Source: a virus. Taken from it: a stretch of DNA of 20,279 nucleotides. The notes beneath the pieces were generated by a model. The model ran no database searches, was not told where the DNA came from, and was given only the letters and a program-made list of their open reading frames with translations. Shown piece after piece: positions 7,328 to 17,527 of the stretch (positions within the stretch are counted from its first letter, which is position 1; every line of letters begins with the position of its first letter). The DNA lies in the IMG/VR virus record IMGVR_UViG_3300035670_001483, positions 1 to 20,279 of that record; one strand, 5' to 3'. A program made the translations under genes and the position numbers.

Positions 7328-7605
7328 TGGCGCTGACGGAGGATCTCGGAATCTTCCTGGCAGACTTCGGCGTCAGCTGCACAGCTGGCGCCGTTACTGC
7401 CCTTGGCATCCTGGACATGCCAAGCCAAGTGCTGGCGAATGGCATGGTGCTCAGCACCGACTACACACTGACCGCCAAGGCTTCTGACTTCGGCACGCTG
7501 ACCCGCGGCAGCTCGATCACGGTTGATTCTGTGGCCTACACCGTGCGCGAGGTGATGCTGATGGATGACGGCAAGATCGTTCAACTTGGACTTCAAAAAA
7601 CATGA
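7327..7605 (+). CDS. FII-like head-tail connector
   Basis: A 92-aa protein resembling lambda gpFII (117 aa), which joins the finished head to the tail. The match is in the C-terminal beta barrel: DFGTLTRGSSITVDSVAYTV, then REVMLMDDGKIVQLGL, compared with the lambda pattern of RRGDTLTI, an aromatic-containing strand and a DDG turn. Its place between the capsid and tail terminator genes agrees with the lambda order. The start ATG shares a base with the previous TGA (TGATG), and the stop overlaps the next start (ATGA). Two internal Cys-free beta strands precede the barrel. Confidence is moderate because the family is short and divergent. Confidence 0.65.
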   Translation: MALTEDLGIFLADFGVSCTAGAVTALGILDMPSQVLANGMVLSTDYTLTAKASDFGTLTRGSSITVDSVAYTVREVMLMDDGKIVQLGLQKT

Positions 7606-8356: not shown

Positions 8357-8529
8357 TGGCTACGATGGACGAGTATCACGGCCAAGGCGGGTCATACCTG
8401 CTGAACCCGAAAACCGGCAAGCGAAAGCTCATCGAGCGGACAGAGCCGGCCCAACCCTCTGAACCCGAACCTGAGGTAACGAGCAATGCCGCTTTTGAGC
8501 CGCAAACGCCTAATTCTGGCGAAAGCTGA
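8353..8529 (+). CDS. Small 58-aa protein between tail terminator and tail tube
   Basis: A 58-residue frame starting ATG 8353 (ATGA overlap with the tail terminator) and ending TGA 8529, which overlaps the first 44 nt of the tail tube gene in another frame. The N-terminal part (MDEYHGQGGSYLLNPKTGKR, then KLIERT) is protein-like, with Gly, aromatic and Lys residues as in short conserved phage tail-module proteins. The remainder is a Pro/Glu-rich disordered tail (PAQPSEPEPEV). No function is known to me. The perfect start overlap, and the fact that it fills an otherwise empty 129-nt gap in a tightly packed operon, are the main evidence that it is real. Confidence 0.6.
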   Translation: MMATMDEYHGQGGSYLLNPKTGKRKLIERTEPAQPSEPEPEVTSNAAFEPQTPNSGES

Positions 8530-9421
8530 AACTGTCTACGGCACCGACCCTACCCCTACGGGTGCGTCGAACGCCATCCTGGTGCGCAACCTGGAGATCA
8601 CCCCGCTGCAGGCTGAGACGGTCACCCGTGACCTGATCCGCCCGTATCTTGGCAACAGCGACCAGCTGCTCGCGCAGACACGCGTTGAAGTGACCTTTGA
8701 GGTTGAGCTGGCTGGCTCCGGCACCGCCGGCACCGCACCGGCATATGGCCCGGTCCTCAAGGCCTGCGGCCTTTCTGAGACGGTTGTGGCGACCACATCG
8801 GTCACCTACGCGCCGGTGTCGAGCAGCTTCGACAGCTGCACGATTCACTTTCACAACGACGGCATTCGCCACAAGGTCACCGGCTGCCGCGGCACCTTCA
8901 GCCTCAGCGCTGAGGTGGGCGCCATCCCGTTCATCAGCTTCACGATGACCGGGATCTACAACGCGCCGACTGATGAAACGCTGCCTGCCCCGACGTACGC
9001 CAACCAAGTGGCGCCGCTGATCTTCAAAAACGGCAACACCAGCTCGTTTTCGATTTTCAGCTACAGCGGCTGCCTGCAGAGCCTGAGCTTCGACTTTGCG
9101 AACGAGATCGTCTATCGCGAGCTGGTCGGCTGCACCAAAGAGGTGCTAATCACCAATCGCGGCCCTAACGGCACCTGCGTGATCGAAGCGCCCAGCATCG
9201 CGACGAAAGATTTCTTCACGATTGCCAACGGCTCGAGCACCGGCTCGATCAGCTTCCTGCACGGCACCACTGCCGGAAACCGTGTGACCTTCACCATGGC
9301 GCAATCTGACATCGGCAGCCCGACTTACTCTGATCAGGACGGCATCCAGATGCTGAACCTGCCCTACCTGGCCATTCCGACCAGCGCAGGCAATGATGAA
9401 CTGAGCCTCGCTTACACCTAA
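8486..9421 (+). CDS. Major tail tube protein
   Basis: Polymerises as rings to make the non-contractile tail tube. The 311-aa protein has the family opening RKRLILAKAETVYGTDPTPT (approx. residues 6-25), followed by ILVRNLEITPLQAETVTRDL and the beta-rich core TRVEVTFEVELAG and FISFTMTGIYNAP, characteristic of siphovirus tube proteins of the phage_tube_2 type. A second beta segment (LSFDFANEIVYRELVG to VTFTMAQSDIG) makes it longer than lambda gpV (246 aa) and may form a surface domain. ATG 8486 follows a GAGG-like stretch (8472-8476). It is next to the tail terminator and chaperone genes, the usual order. Two further tube-like proteins occur at 17924-19251. Confidence 0.88.
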   Translation: MPLLSRKRLILAKAETVYGTDPTPTGASNAILVRNLEITPLQAETVTRDLIRPYLGNSDQLLAQTRVEVTFEVELAGSGTAGTAPAYGPVLKACGLSETVVATTSVTYAPVSSSFDSCTIHFHNDGIRHKVTGCRGTFSLSAEVGAIPFISFTMTGIYNAPTDETLPAPTYANQVAPLIFKNGNTSSFSIFSYSGCLQSLSFDFANEIVYRELVGCTKEVLITNRGPNGTCVIEAPSIATKDFFTIANGSSTGSISFLHGTTAGNRVTFTMAQSDIGSPTYSDQDGIQMLNLPYLAIPTSAGNDELSLAYT

Positions 9422-9431
9422 GGAGCACTGC

Positions 9432-9791
9432 ATGGCTTTTGTCCTCAAGCAATCCGACACCTACACCTGGCCGGTCGCCTTCGATGTCCCCGTCGATGGT
9501 GGCCGGCATGAGCGCCAGACGTTCGATGGTGAGTTCAAGCGGCTGCCGCAAAGCAAGGTTGGTCCGCTGGTGGCTGAGCTGCAGCGGCTCGAGGATTTAG
9601 GCGACCTCGAGCGCATTACTGAAATGGCGGCCGAGGTGCTAGTCGGATGGTCAGGCGTGACCGACGACCAAGGCAAAGATGTGCCATTTAGCCAGAAGGC
9701 GCTCGAGCAGCTGCTTGAGGTACCGCTGTTGTCGGTGGCGATCCTCAAGGCCTACATGGACAGCATCAAGGGAGCCAAGCGAAAAAACTGA
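9432..9791 (+). CDS. Tail assembly chaperone G
   Basis: A 119-aa gpG-like chaperone that, with its frameshifted form GT, coats the tape measure and recruits tube subunits during tail assembly; it is absent from mature virions in lambda. The sequence opens MAFVLKQSDTYTWPVAFDVP and continues with LPQSKVGPLVAELQRLEDL, then a helical WSGVTDDQGKDVPFSQKALE and LLSVAILKAYMDSIKGAKRK, a layout usual for these chaperones. AAGGAG (9420-9425) lies 6 nt before the ATG. The final codons CGA AAA AAC TGA contain the slippery site that lets a fraction of ribosomes enter the -1 frame. Confidence 0.85.
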   Translation: MAFVLKQSDTYTWPVAFDVPVDGGRHERQTFDGEFKRLPQSKVGPLVAELQRLEDLGDLERITEMAAEVLVGWSGVTDDQGKDVPFSQKALEQLLEVPLLSVAILKAYMDSIKGAKRKN

Positions 9792-10111
9792 TCGAGGCCG
9801 CTGAGCATTGGGCCAGCGGCGGCGTCAAGGATGAGACGCAAGACGATGCAGCCGCGCTCGGCGTGGCGCTGCCAGAGCAGGAGCCTGAAGGCAACTTTGA
9901 GGTGTGGGAGGAAAATTGGGCAGTGGTTGCAATGTTTTGCCGAGCGCAGACGCAATGGCGCACCACCATGAACGGCGTGTTGGGGCTCGATTACGGGGCC
10001 GTGGCTTGGCTGTTTAGACTGTACGCAGTGGAGGATGAGCGCTCCATGCTTGAAGACCTGCAGGTGATGGAGGCCGCAGCCATGGCAGCGCTATACGAGA
10101 GGGGCAGCTGA
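9432..10111 (+). CDS. Tail assembly chaperone GT, product of -1 frameshift
   Basis: Predicted 226-aa fusion: 119 codons read in the G frame to AAC 9786-9788, slippage by one base, then 107 codons from CTG 9788-9790 to TGA 10111. The -1 frame is open from the slip site. It encodes a T-like domain with VWEENWAVVAMFCRAQTQWR, GLDYGAVAWLFRL and LQVMEAAAMAALYE, a sequence style I recognise from T domains of other siphoviruses. The T part has no credible start of its own: a GTG at 9863 lacks a Shine-Dalgarno and would remove 25 codons. T domains bind the tail tube protein while G binds the tape measure. The stop is 1 nt before the tape measure ATG. Confidence 0.85.
9782..9788 (+). promoter_or_regulatory. 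-1 frameshift slippery heptamer A AAA AAC
   Basis: The G frame reads CGA AAA AAC TGA, so the heptamer A AAA AAC is in the canonical X XXY YYZ register directly before the G stop codon. Both tRNAs can re-pair one base back on AAA AAA. The frame entered is exactly that of the T domain. Confidence 0.88.
9797..9820 (+). promoter_or_regulatory. Frameshift-stimulating stem-loop
   Basis: GCCGCTG (9797-9803) and CAGCGGC (9814-9820) are perfect reverse complements, giving a 7-bp GC-rich stem with a 10-nt loop. The spacer to the slippery heptamer is 8 nt, within the usual 5-9 nt for -1 frameshift stimulators. I did not see a clear pseudoknot partner for the loop. Confidence 0.8.
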
Positions 10112-10112
10112 C

Positions 10113-12566
10113 ATGGCGCTGAACATGGACGCCATGCTCCGCATCAAGGCGGACGTTCAGGGCGAAAACAACATCCGCCGCCTTGGCAACTCGATGCAGG
10201 GCCTGCAGGGGCAGGTCAAGAACGCAGCGCTGGGCTTCAGCAATCTGAAGGGTGCTGTCGCCGGATTTGGCGCAGCTATTGCTGGCAGCGCGATTGTGGC
10301 TGGCCTGTCGGCCGCTGTGAAGCAAACGATCAACCTAGGCGACGAGCTGGGCAAGCTGAGCGCACGCACAGGTGTGGCGCAGGGCGCGCTGATCGGCTTG
10401 CGCAATGCTGCAGCGCTGTCGGATGTGAGCAACGAGAGCTTGGCCAAGAGCCTGACTAGGCTCAACGTCAACCTAGTCGCTGCTGCTGAGGGCAATGAAG
10501 CTCTAGCCCGGCGGTTCCGGTCTCTTGGCGTGAACATCCGCGGCGCCGATGGGCAGGTGGTGTCGGCCGACAAGGCGCTCAAGCAGTTGGCGGATCGGTT
10601 CGCCAACATGCCGGACGGCGCGCAGAAGGCGGCCGCGGCCGTTCAAATCTTCGGCAAGTCCGGCGCCGACCTCATCCCGCTGCTGAACAGCGGCTCAGAG
10701 GCGATGGAAAAGTTCACCTTTGCGGTCAGCGAAGATTTCTCAGCGCGCTCTGAACTGTTCAATGACACGATCACCGAGCTGGGGTTCAAGACCCAAGGCT
10801 TTCAGCTGCAGCTGACTGATGCGTTGCTGCCGTCGCTGCAGTCGATTCTAGAGGTGTTTGGCGATTTGTTTGACACCAAGAATGACTTCAATGTTTTATT
10901 TGAGGTCATTAAGGGTGGCTTGCGTGCGATAGCGACTGCCTTGTACGCAACAATCAAACTTGTTGATCAATTTTTAAAGGCATGGGGCGCAACATTTGAC
11001 GCGCTTAACAAAGCCATGCAGGGCGATTTTGCCGGTGCCGGCCGCGCTCTTTATCAAGGCCTGACGCAAGGCATTGACCAAGCCAGGCGCGACTTCCAAC
11101 AGATCGAAAAGATCTGGACCGATTCAGCGTCACCCGGCACTGGCAGCATCCGCACCGGCGGGCGCGGCATGGACTTGGATACCAGCGCAGCTGATAGCAG
11201 AGCGGCGGCTGCCGCACGACGCGCCGATGCTGATGCACGTCGTGCCGCCAGCGAACAGGAACGTTTGGCCAAACGCCGCAGCACACTGACTCAGCAAGCG
11301 ATCGCTTTGCAAGAACAGTTACGGCAAAGCGTTGAGGACGCAAATGCTGCCTACAAAGGTGTCGGTGCTAACTCGGTTGAGGCACTGCTGCTGCGGCGCA
11401 ACGCGGCGACCACAGAAAACAACCGCACGATCGACAAGCTCACACTAGACGTAGTGGAGTTGGCGCGTGCGGTTAAAGAAGCCGGCGGCGATTTGGACGT
11501 TGAGCCATTTCGGCAGCTGATCAACACGCTGTCGCAATCACGCGAGACGCTGGCCAATAGCCAGCTCACACAAGGTTTCAAGGATTTACTGCCCAGCCTC
11601 GACGATTACAACCAGCGCATCGCCGAGGCCAAGCTGCTTGAGGAGAACCGCAAGGCTGGCGTCGAAGGATTAACCGAAGCGCAGAAGCTGCAGCTGCAGG
11701 TTCAGCTGTTGGGCCTTGAGGCGCTAGCCGCCACCAACGAAGAGCTGCGCAAGTATCTCGAGCAGTTGAAGCAGGCTGCGGCAGGCCTCGACAAGGTGCA
11801 ACAGAAACAAAAGACAACATTCGGTGAAGACTTCCGAAAGACTTTGCAAGACGCCTACAAGTCGGCCACCGATCTAGGCAGCGCGCTGGGCAGCACCGCT
11901 GTCAGAGGCATCGACGGACTGACCAATGCGATCGTCGATTTTGCGTCAACTGGCAAGGCGGCATTCCAGGATCTGGCGGCCACTGCGCTCAAGGAGTTGG
12001 GCTCGATCTTCATTAAGTACGCCCTATTCAAGACGCTGTTCAGCGTGTTTCCTGGCCTAAACATTGGCTTGGCCGCTACAGGCGGGGCCACCGGGCCGAA
12101 CAGCGCAGCACCTTTGAAGGCGTTCGCCAATGGTGGCATCATGTCGGCTAATGGCGTCGTGCCGCTCAAGCGCTACGCGCAAGGCGGCATTGCCCGGTCG
12201 CCGCAGATGGCGCTCTACGGCGAGCGCGGCCCTGAGGCCTACGTGCCGCTGCCTGACGGTCGCAATATCCCGGTCAAGGTGCAGCAGCGCAACGATGTGC
12301 TGGACCGCTACCGGCCGATGGGCGCGACGGGCACGGTCACAGGCGACGGCGACATGGCCGCGGCTGCTGGTGGCGCTGTGGCTGCTGGCGGCGCGATCGA
12401 CGTGCGCTACACGGTCGAGCGCATCAATAACGTCGAGTACGTCACCGCCGAGCAGTTCCAGCAAGGGCTGCAGCGTGCCGCACGCGAGGGCGCAGCGCGC
12501 GGTGAGCAGCAAACGCTCAGGCGGCTGCAGACCAGCGCCAGCACACGCAGGAAGGTCGGGGTCTGA
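10113..12566 (+). CDS. Tail tape measure protein
   Basis: Sets tail length and is ejected with DNA into the host. The 817-aa protein has an Ala/Gly-rich N-terminus with a hydrophobic stretch at residues ~45-69 (AVAGFGAAIAGSAIVAGLSA), a long region rich in Ala, Gln, Glu and Arg with coiled-coil character (about 360-590), and a C-terminal part like the lambda tape measure family: TNAIVDFASTGKAAFQDLAA, a second hydrophobic stretch near 630-655, and YGERGPEAYVPLPDG near 702. At about 0.15 nm per residue it would specify a tail near 120 nm. The start is 1 nt after the GT stop. A stretch at about 10855-10985 is distinctly AT-rich compared with the rest of the gene. The stop shares a base with the next ATG. 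Confidence 0.93.
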   Translation: MALNMDAMLRIKADVQGENNIRRLGNSMQGLQGQVKNAALGFSNLKGAVAGFGAAIAGSAIVAGLSAAVKQTINLGDELGKLSARTGVAQGALIGLRNAAALSDVSNESLAKSLTRLNVNLVAAAEGNEALARRFRSLGVNIRGADGQVVSADKALKQLADRFANMPDGAQKAAAAVQIFGKSGADLIPLLNSGSEAMEKFTFAVSEDFSARSELFNDTITELGFKTQGFQLQLTDALLPSLQSILEVFGDLFDTKNDFNVLFEVIKGGLRAIATALYATIKLVDQFLKAWGATFDALNKAMQGDFAGAGRALYQGLTQGIDQARRDFQQIEKIWTDSASPGTGSIRTGGRGMDLDTSAADSRAAAAARRADADARRAASEQERLAKRRSTLTQQAIALQEQLRQSVEDANAAYKGVGANSVEALLLRRNAATTENNRTIDKLTLDVVELARAVKEAGGDLDVEPFRQLINTLSQSRETLANSQLTQGFKDLLPSLDDYNQRIAEAKLLEENRKAGVEGLTEAQKLQLQVQLLGLEALAATNEELRKYLEQLKQAAAGLDKVQQKQKTTFGEDFRKTLQDAYKSATDLGSALGSTAVRGIDGLTNAIVDFASTGKAAFQDLAATALKELGSIFIKYALFKTLFSVFPGLNIGLAATGGATGPNSAAPLKAFANGGIMSANGVVPLKRYAQGGIARSPQMALYGERGPEAYVPLPDGRNIPVKVQQRNDVLDRYRPMGATGTVTGDGDMAAAAGGAVAAGGAIDVRYTVERINNVEYVTAEQFQQGLQRAAREGAARGEQQTLRRLQTSASTRRKVGV

Positions 12567-13030
12567 TGGAACTAGCGGTCGGCAATTTTCTGACGTTCAG
12601 CCTCAACGCTGTCACGCTGCACCAGTTCCAAAACTTCTTTATCGGCGAGACGATCACTTACAGCGGCAACAACTACGGGTTCCTGCCGTTTGGGTTCTCG
12701 GGCGTCACGGTCAACCGCACCGGCGACAACACTGAGGCGAGCCTGGTGCTGCCCAACAACACGCTGAGCCGCAACTGGGCGGTTGAGTCAATCGATAATC
12801 GCTGGCTGGCCACCATTGATGTGATGCTGCTCAACCCAGACGATCGGTCGAGCTTCGCTCGGCTGCACCAATACGTGGGCCAGGTAGCCGGCGGCAAATG
12901 GGACGAGGTAGGGCTGCAGGTGACACTCAGCACGGTGCTCGATGCAGTCGGCAGCGATGTGCCGATGCGGCGCCTGACGCAGAAGCTCATCGGCGCGATC
13001 CCGGTCACCAGTGCAATCAGACTGCAGTGA
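12566..13030 (+). CDS. Minor tail protein, gpL-like N-terminal domain only
   Basis: A 154-aa tail tip protein. The strand pattern around TITYSGNNYGFLPFGFSGVT, then ASLVLPNNTLSR and WLATIDVMLLNPDD, resembles the N-terminal domain of lambda gpL and DUF1833-type proteins, which form a ring at the tail tip between tape measure and hub. Lambda gpL (232 aa) has a C-terminal domain with clustered cysteines binding an iron-sulfur cluster; this protein ends before it and contains no Cys. It follows the tape measure in the usual L position and overlaps the next gene by 20 nt. The L/DUF1833 call is moderate and based on pattern and position. Confidence 0.6.
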   Translation: MELAVGNFLTFSLNAVTLHQFQNFFIGETITYSGNNYGFLPFGFSGVTVNRTGDNTEASLVLPNNTLSRNWAVESIDNRWLATIDVMLLNPDDRSSFARLHQYVGQVAGGKWDEVGLQVTLSTVLDAVGSDVPMRRLTQKLIGAIPVTSAIRLQ

Positions 13031-13391
13031 TCTGATCGGCCGGCCGTTTCGGTTGGGCGCTGATGGCAGCGGGCATGAAATCGACTGCATTCACTTGGTC
13101 TACGAGGTGCTGGGTCGGCTTGAGATCCCGGCGCCGCCATTTAAGAAGCGATGGTATGAGGCGAACAGATGGGAGATTCTGAGGGATTTACTGGCTTGGG
13201 GTTACAGGGTGCCGCAGCCCCTTTACGATGGGGACGTTCTGCTCATCCCGCACGACGGATGGGCATTCGCGGTGACATGGCAGACCGGGATCCTGTACTG
13301 CAACCAACAGCTGAAGCAGGTCTGCTGGTCACCGGCGCGCAGCTTTACAACCCGCCACTGCTTCCGTTCGAGAAGCAGATCATCGAGCTGA
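13011..13391 (+). CDS. NlpC/P60-like tail tip protein (gpK position)
   Basis: A 126-aa protein in the place of lambda gpK, whose NlpC/P60 domain is thought to cut peptidoglycan or mature the tail tip. It has the family's N-terminal Cys motif: IGRPFRLGADGSGHEIDCIH with Cys26 at the start of the helix LVYEVLG, then the strand PLYDGDVLLI. The usual His of an HVGI-type strand is not evident. The equivalent stretch reads GWAFAVTWQTGILYC, and the only nearby His is H81 in IPHDGW, so activity is doubtful. The start is GTG 13011, inside the previous gene, with only a weak Shine-Dalgarno. The last part overlaps the J-like gene in the -1 frame, and the extreme C-terminus (TTRHCFRSRSRSSS) may be little more than overlap-constrained sequence. 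Confidence 0.65.
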   Translation: MQSDCSDLIGRPFRLGADGSGHEIDCIHLVYEVLGRLEIPAPPFKKRWYEANRWEILRDLLAWGYRVPQPLYDGDVLLIPHDGWAFAVTWQTGILYCNQQLKQVCWSPARSFTTRHCFRSRSRSSS

Positions 13392-16300
13392 TCGGCTGCA
13401 GCGAAGCTGAGTATCGGTTTCTGGTGGCTGAGGCTGTGCGGCGCGCTGGGCCGCGGCCTGCGGCTTATGCACATGTGCCGGAAGTGCAGATGGAGCTGGT
13501 AACAATTATCAGTTTGGTGGTTGGCTTGGCGCTGTCGGCCGCCTCTTACCTGCTGACGCCGAAGCCAAAGGAACGGCCAGCGAACGACATCCAACAGCGC
13601 AACCTGGGCAGCATCAACGGCCCGTCACGATTCAGCCCGACCTTTGGTTTCGACAGCCAGGCCGAGCTGGCCAACTACGGCGAACCGATCCCGATCGTGT
13701 TTGGCCGTTACACCGGCGAGACCGGCGGCATGTTGGTCAGCCCGCGGCTGGTGTGGTCGCGCATGTTTAGCTACGGCACGCAGCAGGCGATCAAGCTGCT
13801 GCTCGTGGTGGGCGAGCAAGGGCGCGACGCGGGCCAAACACCGCAGGGCATCGACCCGCCAAGTCTGAACGGCATCTTCATCGGTAACGGTGCGCTCGAC
13901 GCGATCTACGAGAACGCGTTCACGTTCTATTGGAAGCGCAACACGACGATCTCAGGTTTTAGCCGCATCAAAGCGGTGAACCGCATCTATGGCACCCGCG
14001 GCACGCCCGAAAGCGCCGACCCCGAAACCTTCGACGACATCTACAGCTGCCCGACGGGCCGCAGCGAGAACGACTACGGGTTCAGCTCAGCGCATGGCCT
14101 GAGCAACAACGCCGAGTTTGGCTGTTACGCGCCGATCGCCAACGGCTCCGGCTATCGCGTCAACTGGCGCGTCGTCACGATCCCCGAGCTGCAGGATCAA
14201 GAAGATGACCCCGGCAACAATCTGATCTACGAGCGGATCAAGATCGCCGGCGACAACAACGGCGCTGCAGCCAGCCCGAACGCTGTGCGCGACCTGTATC
14301 AGTCCGGCACCGGTCGCAACTACAGCCGCCGCATGGGCATCACGGCGCTGAACGGTGTCGGTGTGGCCAACTCGGTCGGCACTGAGGAGCGCCGCGTAAA
14401 CGTGGGCGACGTGATCCAGTTCACGATCGTCGCGAGGCAGATCCCCGAGAACATCTACGAGGCTGGCTCGGTCAAGGTTGACGACATCAACAGCGAGCTG
14501 AACGAACAGCGGATCGCGGCCGACGACGCGCTGCAGATCGGCGAGCTGTTCATGATCGCCCGCACAACGTGGCAGGTGACAGGCCGCAAGCTGTCGCAGT
14601 GGCGGCCCGAGGACAATCAGGACCAGGTGATCGAGCTGAAGTGCATCGACACCAACCCACCGGCCAACAACACGATCGGCCTAGTGGCGCCGGCGATGCT
14701 GACCAGCAACTACCTGAGCGACGACAACGGCGCGACCAACAAGCTGCACGCAGGTGGCGCGTTCTATCCGCTGATGCGGTTCTCAAAGGGCACCGTCCGC
14801 AACACCAGGGCGTGCGAGGTGACCGAGATCGGGCTGCGGTCCAGCGTGTTCCAGCGGATCAACGGGCTGTGCAACTTCCAGTCAATCCCGACGCCTGACG
14901 AGCTGCGCGACGCAGAACGCAACCGGGTCAACCTGAACAGCGGCACGATCAGCTCCTACGTTCGCCGCGCGTCGGTGTTCACCGTGTTCCTGCGGCCCGC
15001 TGGCCTCGACCTGAACGGGCAGGCCTACGGCTGGCAGCCGCTGGGTATGCGGTTTGTGGTGGTGGGCAACCAACCAACCGATCTCTACAACTTCCTGCGG
15101 TTCAGGCATCCCGAGAGCCGGCAGTACGAGTTCCAGTTCATCCCGAAGAACGGCGCAGACATGCGCAACTCGGCAGAAGAAACTGAGTTTTGGCAGCTGA
15201 ACGCAGCCGCATCGGTTGGCAACAGCGGCGAGCGGTCGATCCTTAGCGCTGATTTTGACACGGTTTACGGTCGGTTTACGGTCACGTCGGTCGGGCGCGT
15301 GGTGCGCAAGGCTGAGATCCAGAAGAACGCTGAGTTCACCAGCAAGCCAAGCGCAACCGGATCGGTCAAAACGCGCAGCTACCCAAGCGCGGTTGGCATT
15401 AACAGCTACCTGCCAGATGTAGAAGCCACAACCACAACGGCTGTCGCTGTGCAGTACGTGGACCTCTACAGCAACCCGTCAGGATTTACACAAGGCCGTA
15501 GCGGTTCTTTTACGTCTGAATTATTTGGATCGGCCGACAACTCGCCTGTAGGAGAGGGCGGATTTACCACGCGTCAAGTGCGCGAGCAGCTGCCAAACAA
15601 CCAATGGATCGAGCTGGAGTACAGAGCAATCAAGAGCCGGCTGCCGAGCGGGCATTTTAGCGGTCAGACGTTCTACTGGTTCATCGTCGAATACAACGTA
15701 AAGGGCAGCTCAGGCGGCTTCAACACGTTCCAGGAGTTCATCGTCTCGCGCAACATCAGCGCCAGCAACCCGTTCAGATCTGTGCCCGGCGAGGGCACCA
15801 TCCTGAGCAGCGGCGTGAAGCTGAGCGTCACCGGCGTGCAAAGCACCGCGCAGCCACAAGGCCGGTCACAGGGTGCGTTCGAGGAGATCTTCGGCCCGGC
15901 GCGCAACTACGACATCGGGCAGATCCGCACCGCGACGGTCAACTACACATCAGGCGATCGCAAAATCCGGCTCACGCTGTCGAGCACGGTCTACAGCGAT
16001 CCGAATCACTGGACCGGGGTGACCAAGCTCTGGACCACGCCGACGATCACGCCAAGCCGCGACAGCAACACGTCAACCAACTGGAATGCAGGCGACCTGT
16101 TCAACCGTAACTATGCGGTCAGCGCATCCAACCCATTTGCGCAGCAGTACGTCAGCACCGGCGTCGGCATTCAGTTCATCGTGCAGGCAATCAGTAACCT
16201 TGAGCTGGCGCCGTCGGTGTTCACGGCCGCGCGTGAGTTTGAAACGCAAAGCCAGTACGCCGACGTGAGCTTCTACGGCAACCTGGTCGAGAAGTCGAAC

Positions 16301-17527
16301 GCGAGCCAGCCCGAGCATCGTATCGCCTACGTCAATGAGATCGTCTCCAACGAGACCGCGCCAAGCTATGACCGCATGACGATCTGCGGCTTGGTCCTCA
16401 AGGCCAGCCGCAACTTCAGCAACGTCGATCAGATCCGGCTGTGGCTGGCGAACGGCGTCCCGGTCACCCGCTTTCACCCTGACGACGCAGCAGCACCAAT
16501 TGGCCCGTCAAACCTATTCAGCGACCTTGTGTTTTATCTGCTGACCAACGCAACAGCAGGCCTTGGTCGGGTGCTCAACATGACCGCCGACAACGCGCCA
16601 TTGATTAACACGGCCGACTTTGTTACAACCGCCAAGTTCCTCAAAGCGAACCGGCTGTTCTTTGACGGCGTGCTGGGTGATGCGGTCAACGTGCGGCAGT
16701 ACATCGGTGAGACCGCGCCATTCTTCCTGTGCAACTTTGTGATCCGCGACGGCAAGTTCAGCATCGTGCCCGCGCTGCCGACCACCGCCGCTGGCGAGAT
16801 CAGCACCGGTCCGGTCACGATCAGCCAGCTGTTCACCGCCGGCAACATCCTTGAGGACAGCTTTGAGTTGGAGTATCTCGCGGCCGAGGAGCGCAAGCCA
16901 TTTCAGGCGGTGGTGCGCTACCGCGACGAAACCGAGAACCAGCTGCCGCAAGAGCGCAACATTGTCGTGCGATGGGCCGACGCTGATGAGTTCACCGCCA
17001 GCGAGTCCTTTGATATGACTGCTTACTGCACCAGTGAGCAGCACGCGCGCATTGTGGGTAAGTTCTTCCTGTCGATCCGCCAGCGCGTCAATCACACCAT
17101 TCGGTTCCGCACGACGCCCTACGGGCTCAATCTGGCGCCGGGTGAGTTCATCAAGGTGGTCACCGAGGCCAGCCCCTACAGCGCCGCCAAGAACGGCACG
17201 ATCAGCAGCTCTGGCGTGGTCACCAGCGCCACCACGCTGACCGATGGCCAGTACCGGATCCTCTACTACAAGAGCGGTTCAGAAGACGTGAGCGAGGCGA
17301 CCTTGTCGATAAGCGGCGGCCGCACGCAGGACCAGTCGCTATGGGGCACGATCTTCACGCTGCTCGAGGCGACAACATCGCAAAACGTCTACATGGTCGA
17401 GCAGCTCACGCTTTCTGATGACAACACCGTGCAAATCACGGCTTCTGAGTTCCCCTGCGACGACAACCTGTCTAGCCTGATGGCGCAAGATGTACTCAAC
17501 AACAGCCGTTTCGCATTCGAGACCTGA
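13277..17527 (+). CDS. J-like central tail hub / host specificity protein
   Basis: Large tail tip protein that forms the hub and contacts the host. The N-terminal part has LYNPPLLPFEKQIIELIGCS (about 24-43), a hydrophobic segment VTIISLVVGLALSAASYLL (75-93) and EPIPIVFGRYTGETGGMLVS. The middle is a long beta-rich region. The last 350 residues carry hub motifs, including HTIRFRTTPYGLNLAPGEFI near 1273-1292, as in lambda J-type proteins. The predicted 1416 aa is longer than lambda J (1132 aa). The start is uncertain. Protein-like sequence is clear from about 13320, and ATG 13277 is the nearest upstream standard start, overlapping the NlpC gene by 115 nt. ATG 13490, preceded by GGAAG, would lose the conserved-looking LPFEKQII segment. 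Frame positions upstream of 13277 read like a shadow of the NlpC gene. The stop shares a base with the next ATG. Confidence 0.88.
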   Translation: MADRDPVLQPTAEAGLLVTGAQLYNPPLLPFEKQIIELIGCSEAEYRFLVAEAVRRAGPRPAAYAHVPEVQMELVTIISLVVGLALSAASYLLTPKPKERPANDIQQRNLGSINGPSRFSPTFGFDSQAELANYGEPIPIVFGRYTGETGGMLVSPRLVWSRMFSYGTQQAIKLLLVVGEQGRDAGQTPQGIDPPSLNGIFIGNGALDAIYENAFTFYWKRNTTISGFSRIKAVNRIYGTRGTPESADPETFDDIYSCPTGRSENDYGFSSAHGLSNNAEFGCYAPIANGSGYRVNWRVVTIPELQDQEDDPGNNLIYERIKIAGDNNGAAASPNAVRDLYQSGTGRNYSRRMGITALNGVGVANSVGTEERRVNVGDVIQFTIVARQIPENIYEAGSVKVDDINSELNEQRIAADDALQIGELFMIARTTWQVTGRKLSQWRPEDNQDQVIELKCIDTNPPANNTIGLVAPAMLTSNYLSDDNGATNKLHAGGAFYPLMRFSKGTVRNTRACEVTEIGLRSSVFQRINGLCNFQSIPTPDELRDAERNRVNLNSGTISSYVRRASVFTVFLRPAGLDLNGQAYGWQPLGMRFVVVGNQPTDLYNFLRFRHPESRQYEFQFIPKNGADMRNSAEETEFWQLNAAASVGNSGERSILSADFDTVYGRFTVTSVGRVVRKAEIQKNAEFTSKPSATGSVKTRSYPSAVGINSYLPDVEATTTTAVAVQYVDLYSNPSGFTQGRSGSFTSELFGSADNSPVGEGGFTTRQVREQLPNNQWIELEYRAIKSRLPSGHFSGQTFYWFIVEYNVKGSSGGFNTFQEFIVSRNISASNPFRSVPGEGTILSSGVKLSVTGVQSTAQPQGRSQGAFEEIFGPARNYDIGQIRTATVNYTSGDRKIRLTLSSTVYSDPNHWTGVTKLWTTPTITPSRDSNTSTNWNAGDLFNRNYAVSASNPFAQQYVSTGVGIQFIVQAISNLELAPSVFTAAREFETQSQYADVSFYGNLVEKSNASQPEHRIAYVNEIVSNETAPSYDRMTICGLVLKASRNFSNVDQIRLWLANGVPVTRFHPDDAAAPIGPSNLFSDLVFYLLTNATAGLGRVLNMTADNAPLINTADFVTTAKFLKANRLFFDGVLGDAVNVRQYIGETAPFFLCNFVIRDGKFSIVPALPTTAAGEISTGPVTISQLFTAGNILEDSFELEYLAAEERKPFQAVVRYRDETENQLPQERNIVVRWADADEFTASESFDMTAYCTSEQHARIVGKFFLSIRQRVNHTIRFRTTPYGLNLAPGEFIKVVTEASPYSAAKNGTISSSGVVTSATTLTDGQYRILYYKSGSEDVSEATLSISGGRTQDQSLWGTIFTLLEATTSQNVYMVEQLTLSDDNTVQITASEFPCDDNLSSLMAQDVLNNSRFAFET

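Follow-up and report, generated by a model that had tools for sequence, protein, structure and literature searches.

The window analysed here, a stretch of 20,279 nucleotides (IMG/VR virus record IMGVR_UViG_3300035670_001483, positions 1 to 20,279), carries a pair of overlapping reading frames between a tail tube gene and a tape measure gene, which is the standard position of a G-T tail chaperone pair. The features of the locus are:

8486..9421, plus strand: tail tube protein gene, just upstream of G (Pfam Phage_tube_2, E 2.4e-26)
9432..9791, plus strand: gene G, tail assembly chaperone, 119 aa followed by TGA (Phage_TAC_4; PHROG 569 and 313)
9768..9774, plus strand: Shine-Dalgarno (SD)-like AAGGGAG, candidate 5' stimulator 7 nt upstream of the heptamer (anti-SD pairing, invariant GGA)
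9782..9788, plus strand: slippery heptamer A_AAA_AAC (read directly; conserved in relatives)
9789..9791, plus strand: zero-frame stop TGA abutting the heptamer (read directly; conserved in relatives)
9788..10111, plus strand: T domain in the -1 frame, 107 codons followed by TGA (Pfam DUF1799)
9797..9803, plus strand: 5' arm of the hairpin, GCCGCTG, the exact reverse complement of 9814-9820, with conserved pairs
9805..9813, plus strand: apical part of the hairpin with inner pairs and loop (minimum free energy and centroid structures agree)
9814..9820, plus strand: 3' arm of the hairpin, CAGCGGC, exactly complementary to the 5' arm, with conserved pairs
10113..12566, plus strand: tape measure protein gene, just downstream of T (Tape_meas_lam_C, E 2e-9; tape-measure PHROGs)

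G matches Phage_TAC_4 (Pfam PF08748) over the entire profile (1-124 of 124) with 23.0 bits, a score barely above the curated cut-off of 21.1, and the same domain was found in 39 of 50 G homologues. The -1 frame, which had been described as open for 107 codons and T-domain-like, is confirmed in both respects by direct reading (sense codons 9788-10108, closing TGA 10109-10111) and by its match to DUF1799 (PF08809; E 5.5e-19, 68.6 bits against a curated cut-off of 26). DUF1799 was also detected in 40 of 41 homologous -1 frames. The predicted GT fusion comprises 119 + 107 = 226 aa, and the locus supports the view that DUF1799 represents, in many phages and prophages, the T half of a TAC_4 chaperone. 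PDB searches with G and T by sequence and by fold gave no meaningful match, and for this reason we claim no fold-level tie to solved tail chaperones. There was likewise no match in a search of NCBIfam, no family in an Rfam search of the window and no hit among phage records when the entire window was compared by megablast. Under PHROGs 569, 680 and 17368, matched by G and T (9432-10111), both chaperone halves carry the label 'tail length tape measure protein', probably in error.

The zero-frame codons of G end with CGA AAA AAC TGA, and the heptamer thereby lies in the X_XXY_YYZ register directly in front of the stop. A spacer of 8 nt (9789-9796) separates it from the stem. Heptamer, register, spacer and the 7-bp stem can all be read exactly where the original prediction had placed them. 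AAAAAAC is not rare by itself in the window (2 copies observed, 0.85 expected); the second copy, at 7595, lies outside the slippery register. The called genes contain six in-register XXXYYYZ heptamers, only one of which, A_AAA_AAC at 9782-9788, abuts a stop codon.

As far as sequence comparison goes, the directly observed conservation of this arrangement is the decisive evidence for a frameshift signal. In the 80 closest IMG/VR relatives of G (the close set), AAAAAAC stands directly before a stop (TGA or TAA) in every case, and the -1 frame is open for 106-111 codons wherever the contig is long enough; the sole exception, L034, has a premature stop in T near the contig end. R_RRA_AAC directly precedes the stop in all 11 isolate phages compared (S-CBS1, S-CBS3, S-LBS1, RcapMu, RcWaterboi, RC1, Pandora71, RhkS_P1, MACPNOA1, ZX4290 and phiES15). 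A wider set was assembled from viral contigs and bacterial genomes by means of T proteins (170 loci, dereplicated to 111). The T profile searches used single proteins and a closer alignment, as the most diverse T alignment had no sufficiently conserved stretch. A usable heptamer is present in 161 of the 170 loci, and nearly all others are truncated near a contig end. Among the 111 dereplicated relatives the heptamer is AAAAAAC in 89, GGGAAAC in 20 and composed of A only in 2, so that R_RRA_AAC is found in 109; 102 of the 111 have the stop immediately next to it, and the others have it at a distance of 3-39 nt. Heptamers ending with AAG, the more shift-prone type in E. coli (PMC5009743), were not found in any of these 111 relatives. 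The constant AAC ending could stem from two conserved residues, the terminal Asn of G and the initial Leu of T, as well as from a preferred rate. The heptamer of the A-run/AAC type, pointed out in the original prediction as the choice of this phage, is indeed present; special to this phage it is not, R_RRA_AAC being the rule in the TAC_4/DUF1799 family and already published. Checked against its own refuting condition, homologues with neither heptamer nor -1 frame, the prediction stands: nearly all homologous loci keep both of these together with a T domain of the DUF1799 type.

A single gene split by an error in sequencing or assembly, e.g. by a miscounted A in the homopolymer, would look alike in two frames, as would a decayed pseudogene. 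Such an origin is of negligible probability, since the identical break at the same codon is shared by 80 metagenome viral contigs and also by isolate phages and bacterial genomes; sequencing error was rejected because isolates sequenced independently keep this break.

GT could also be made by ordinary translation if RNA polymerase added an A on the A6 run of some mRNAs. The six-A run of the window would fit such transcriptional slippage, as would the run of eight A that replaces AAAAAAC in two relatives, but bacterial slippage is described on stretches of nine A or T (PMC5009743), and the GGGAAAC of 20 of the 111 representatives has no long homopolymer. Furthermore, the C at position 7, the distance of the hairpin and the SD-like element all suit a ribosomal site. 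We consider polymerase slippage very unlikely and rejected it because of the GGGAAAC relatives and the run of only six A. The eight-A runs are located at the G/T junctions of L147 (near 1491) and L201 (near 424); in these two relatives another register or slippage by the polymerase could be at work.

A third explanation holds that T is a separate protein, made by translational coupling from a separate start located after the G stop, and that no fusion is made. A short separate T ORF is annotated in several GenBank records. Against this, the 111 representatives have no ATG, GTG or TTG at a conserved position in T, the starts being scattered, and in 25 of them the first ATG lies beyond the conserved TQW core. 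The alignment of homologues begins at the first Leu codon of T, and the SD-like element is not followed by a -1-frame ATG, GTG or TTG at usable spacing. A separate start of T was rejected on account of the scattered start codons, and we regard it as even less probable than slippage of the polymerase.

The locus is almost certainly a programmed -1 ribosomal frameshift site, giving from one start the G protein (119 aa) and, as a minor product, the GT fusion (226 aa). On the sequence evidence it is a real G/GT site, correctly predicted but ordinary and of a kind already known. Most ribosomes would read AAA AAC and terminate at the adjoining UGA to give G, and a minority would be delayed by the hairpin 8 nt downstream; pairing of AAGGGAG with 16S rRNA possibly adds to this delay. 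We infer that tRNA-Lys and tRNA-Asn then slip back by one base, from A_AAA_AAC to AAA_AAA, and that the shifted ribosomes resume at CTG (Leu) and continue into the DUF1799 T domain with the junction ...KRKN-LIEAAEHW.... By analogy to lambda, the role of G would be to coat the tape measure protein and that of the T part to recruit tube subunits, and the ratio of G to GT would matter for this reason. In E. coli, A_AAA_AAG shifts far more readily than A_AAA_AAC (PMC5009743), so the frameshift rate at this locus may be low.

In the predicted fold, two inner G-C pairs (9805-9806 with 9812-9813) extend the perfect 7-bp stem. The 36 nt after the heptamer fold with -18.1 kcal/mol (z -2.3 versus dinucleotide shuffles), and a 72-nt stretch is unremarkable (z -1.05). 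Of 53 distinct relatives, 39 retain all seven stem pairs. Covariation is thin, with a pairing-preserving double change at one stem pair only among these 53 sequences. Since most pairs are fixed by protein constraint, compensatory changes are a weak proof of the stem, and synonymous-codon nulls were used instead: the T codons were swapped for synonyms drawn from the same gene, the protein was kept and the folding was compared. In the 21 representatives closest to the window, the segment of 42 nt at +5..+46 after the heptamer gave a mean z of -2.46, and the folding excess is confined to this segment and absent elsewhere along T. Cyanophage-like relatives (n=37) showed a mean z of -1.88 at +5..+46 and only there; for other phages and prophages (n=53) the folding excess was weak (mean z -0.65). 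Many proteobacterial prophage relatives keep the heptamer without a clear hairpin, indicating that such a structure is not required across the whole family. Judged against these nulls, the hairpin is under selection in the clade of the window but not throughout the family. The stem had been called unusually clean, which does not hold, as an identical 7-bp stem is present in most close relatives and a longer one in S-LBS1 and the Microcystis phage MACPNOA1.

The AAGGGAG element at 9768-9774 was absent from the original prediction. On average, 48% of the four-fold sites in G codons 1-105 differ between representatives, and constraint on synonymous sites in G starts at about codon 106. The codon for Gly114 is GGA in all 59 distinct close relatives; elsewhere in G, Gly is mostly encoded by GGC or GGT. 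Of 26 four-fold degenerate columns, only that of Gly114 is invariant. AAGGGAG and AAAGGAG alternate among the close relatives, each being a good SD match, and pairing with the anti-SD exceeds the synonymous-codon nulls (mean z -2.16) only at this position. S-CBS1 and many further relatives have no SD-like element. In dnaX and in many IS elements, SD elements placed 9-14 nt ahead of the heptamer act as stimulators of the -1 shift (PMC5009743). With 7 nt the spacing of AAGGGAG lies outside the range reported for -1 sites, so that its putative role as a stimulator is uncertain. The conserved SD-like element is the only mildly new point of the locus. It is conceivable, though rather doubtful, that the G/GT site of this clade is a three-part signal composed of an internal SD stimulator (7 nt, below the known -1 spacing), a stop-abutting heptamer and a hairpin, and that, the R_RRA_AAC-stop arrangement being nearly family-wide, slow termination could set the GT ratio together with the hairpin. 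The SD-like element and the abutting stop offer handles on what sets the ratio of G to GT. The remaining interest of the locus lies in this element, in the nearly family-wide R_RRA_AAC-stop rule and in the corrected mis-annotation of cyanophage genes.

The closest isolate relatives are the Synechococcus phages S-CBS1, S-LBS1 and S-CBS3 (G 30-47%, T 42-50% identical). All three have AAAAAAC-TGA, and the stem of S-CBS1 is the same as that of the window. A homologous chaperone/DUF1799 pair is found in Rhodobacter phage RcapMu (gp49/gp50), with GGGAAAC-TGA and a hairpin; its G is about 31% identical to that of the window and its hairpin is longer and more GC-rich. The RcapMu record is annotated with 'potential -1 frameshift' and 'DUF1799-containing protein'. 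The lambda G/GT genes have the same genomic position, and their -1 shift, like the one predicted for the window, occurs near the end of G. The slippery heptamer of lambda is GGGAAAG, whereas that of the window is AAAAAAC; no lambda-type G or T model matched the window proteins, for which Pfam at E <= 0.1 names only TAC_4 and DUF1799. In lambda, G and GT are produced at a ratio of about 30:1, which is required for tail assembly (PMC5009743).

The heptamer-stop arrangement is already known, and the window is a further member of this group. AAAAAAC-stop was published as the predicted frameshift site of gp12/gp13 in Acinetobacter phage vB_AbaS_Loki (PMC5313236); Loki and IME_AB3 share the arrangement with the window but are different phages with a different host. 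In Burkholderia phage KL1 (gp18/gp19), GGGAAAC immediately before TGA was published as a predicted site giving a -1 fusion, with a predicted stem-loop downstream (PMC3483164). KL1 differs from the window by GGGAAAC in place of AAAAAAC and by an extra gene between chaperone and tape measure. Phages of the phiCbK group have AAAAAAC or GGGAAAC (PMC3556154). E. coli dnaX combines an internal SD, an A_AAA_AAx heptamer and a downstream stem-loop (PMC5009743), and these three parts have candidate counterparts in the window without any relation by descent. In dnaX the heptamer ends with AAG and about 50% of ribosomes shift, to a shorter product, whereas the window has AAC and an SD-like element at 7 nt, compared to the 9-14 nt reported for -1 sites.

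The window represents a clean, strongly conserved case in cyanophage-like siphoviruses, whose records split the chaperone into two unrelated genes. In the records of S-CBS1, S-LBS1 and S-CBS3 the genes are separate or truncated and the frameshift is unannotated; T is given as a short separate ORF starting downstream (L082-L084), and the fusion was missed. The S-LBS1 record lists the G homologue (L083, 1501-1881) under the name of an ABC-transporter ATPase component (FepC). At another tail gene junction of the window, the ORFs 13011-13391 and 13169-17527 overlap by about 220 bases in different frames, which is probably merely due to an over-long start call for the second ORF.
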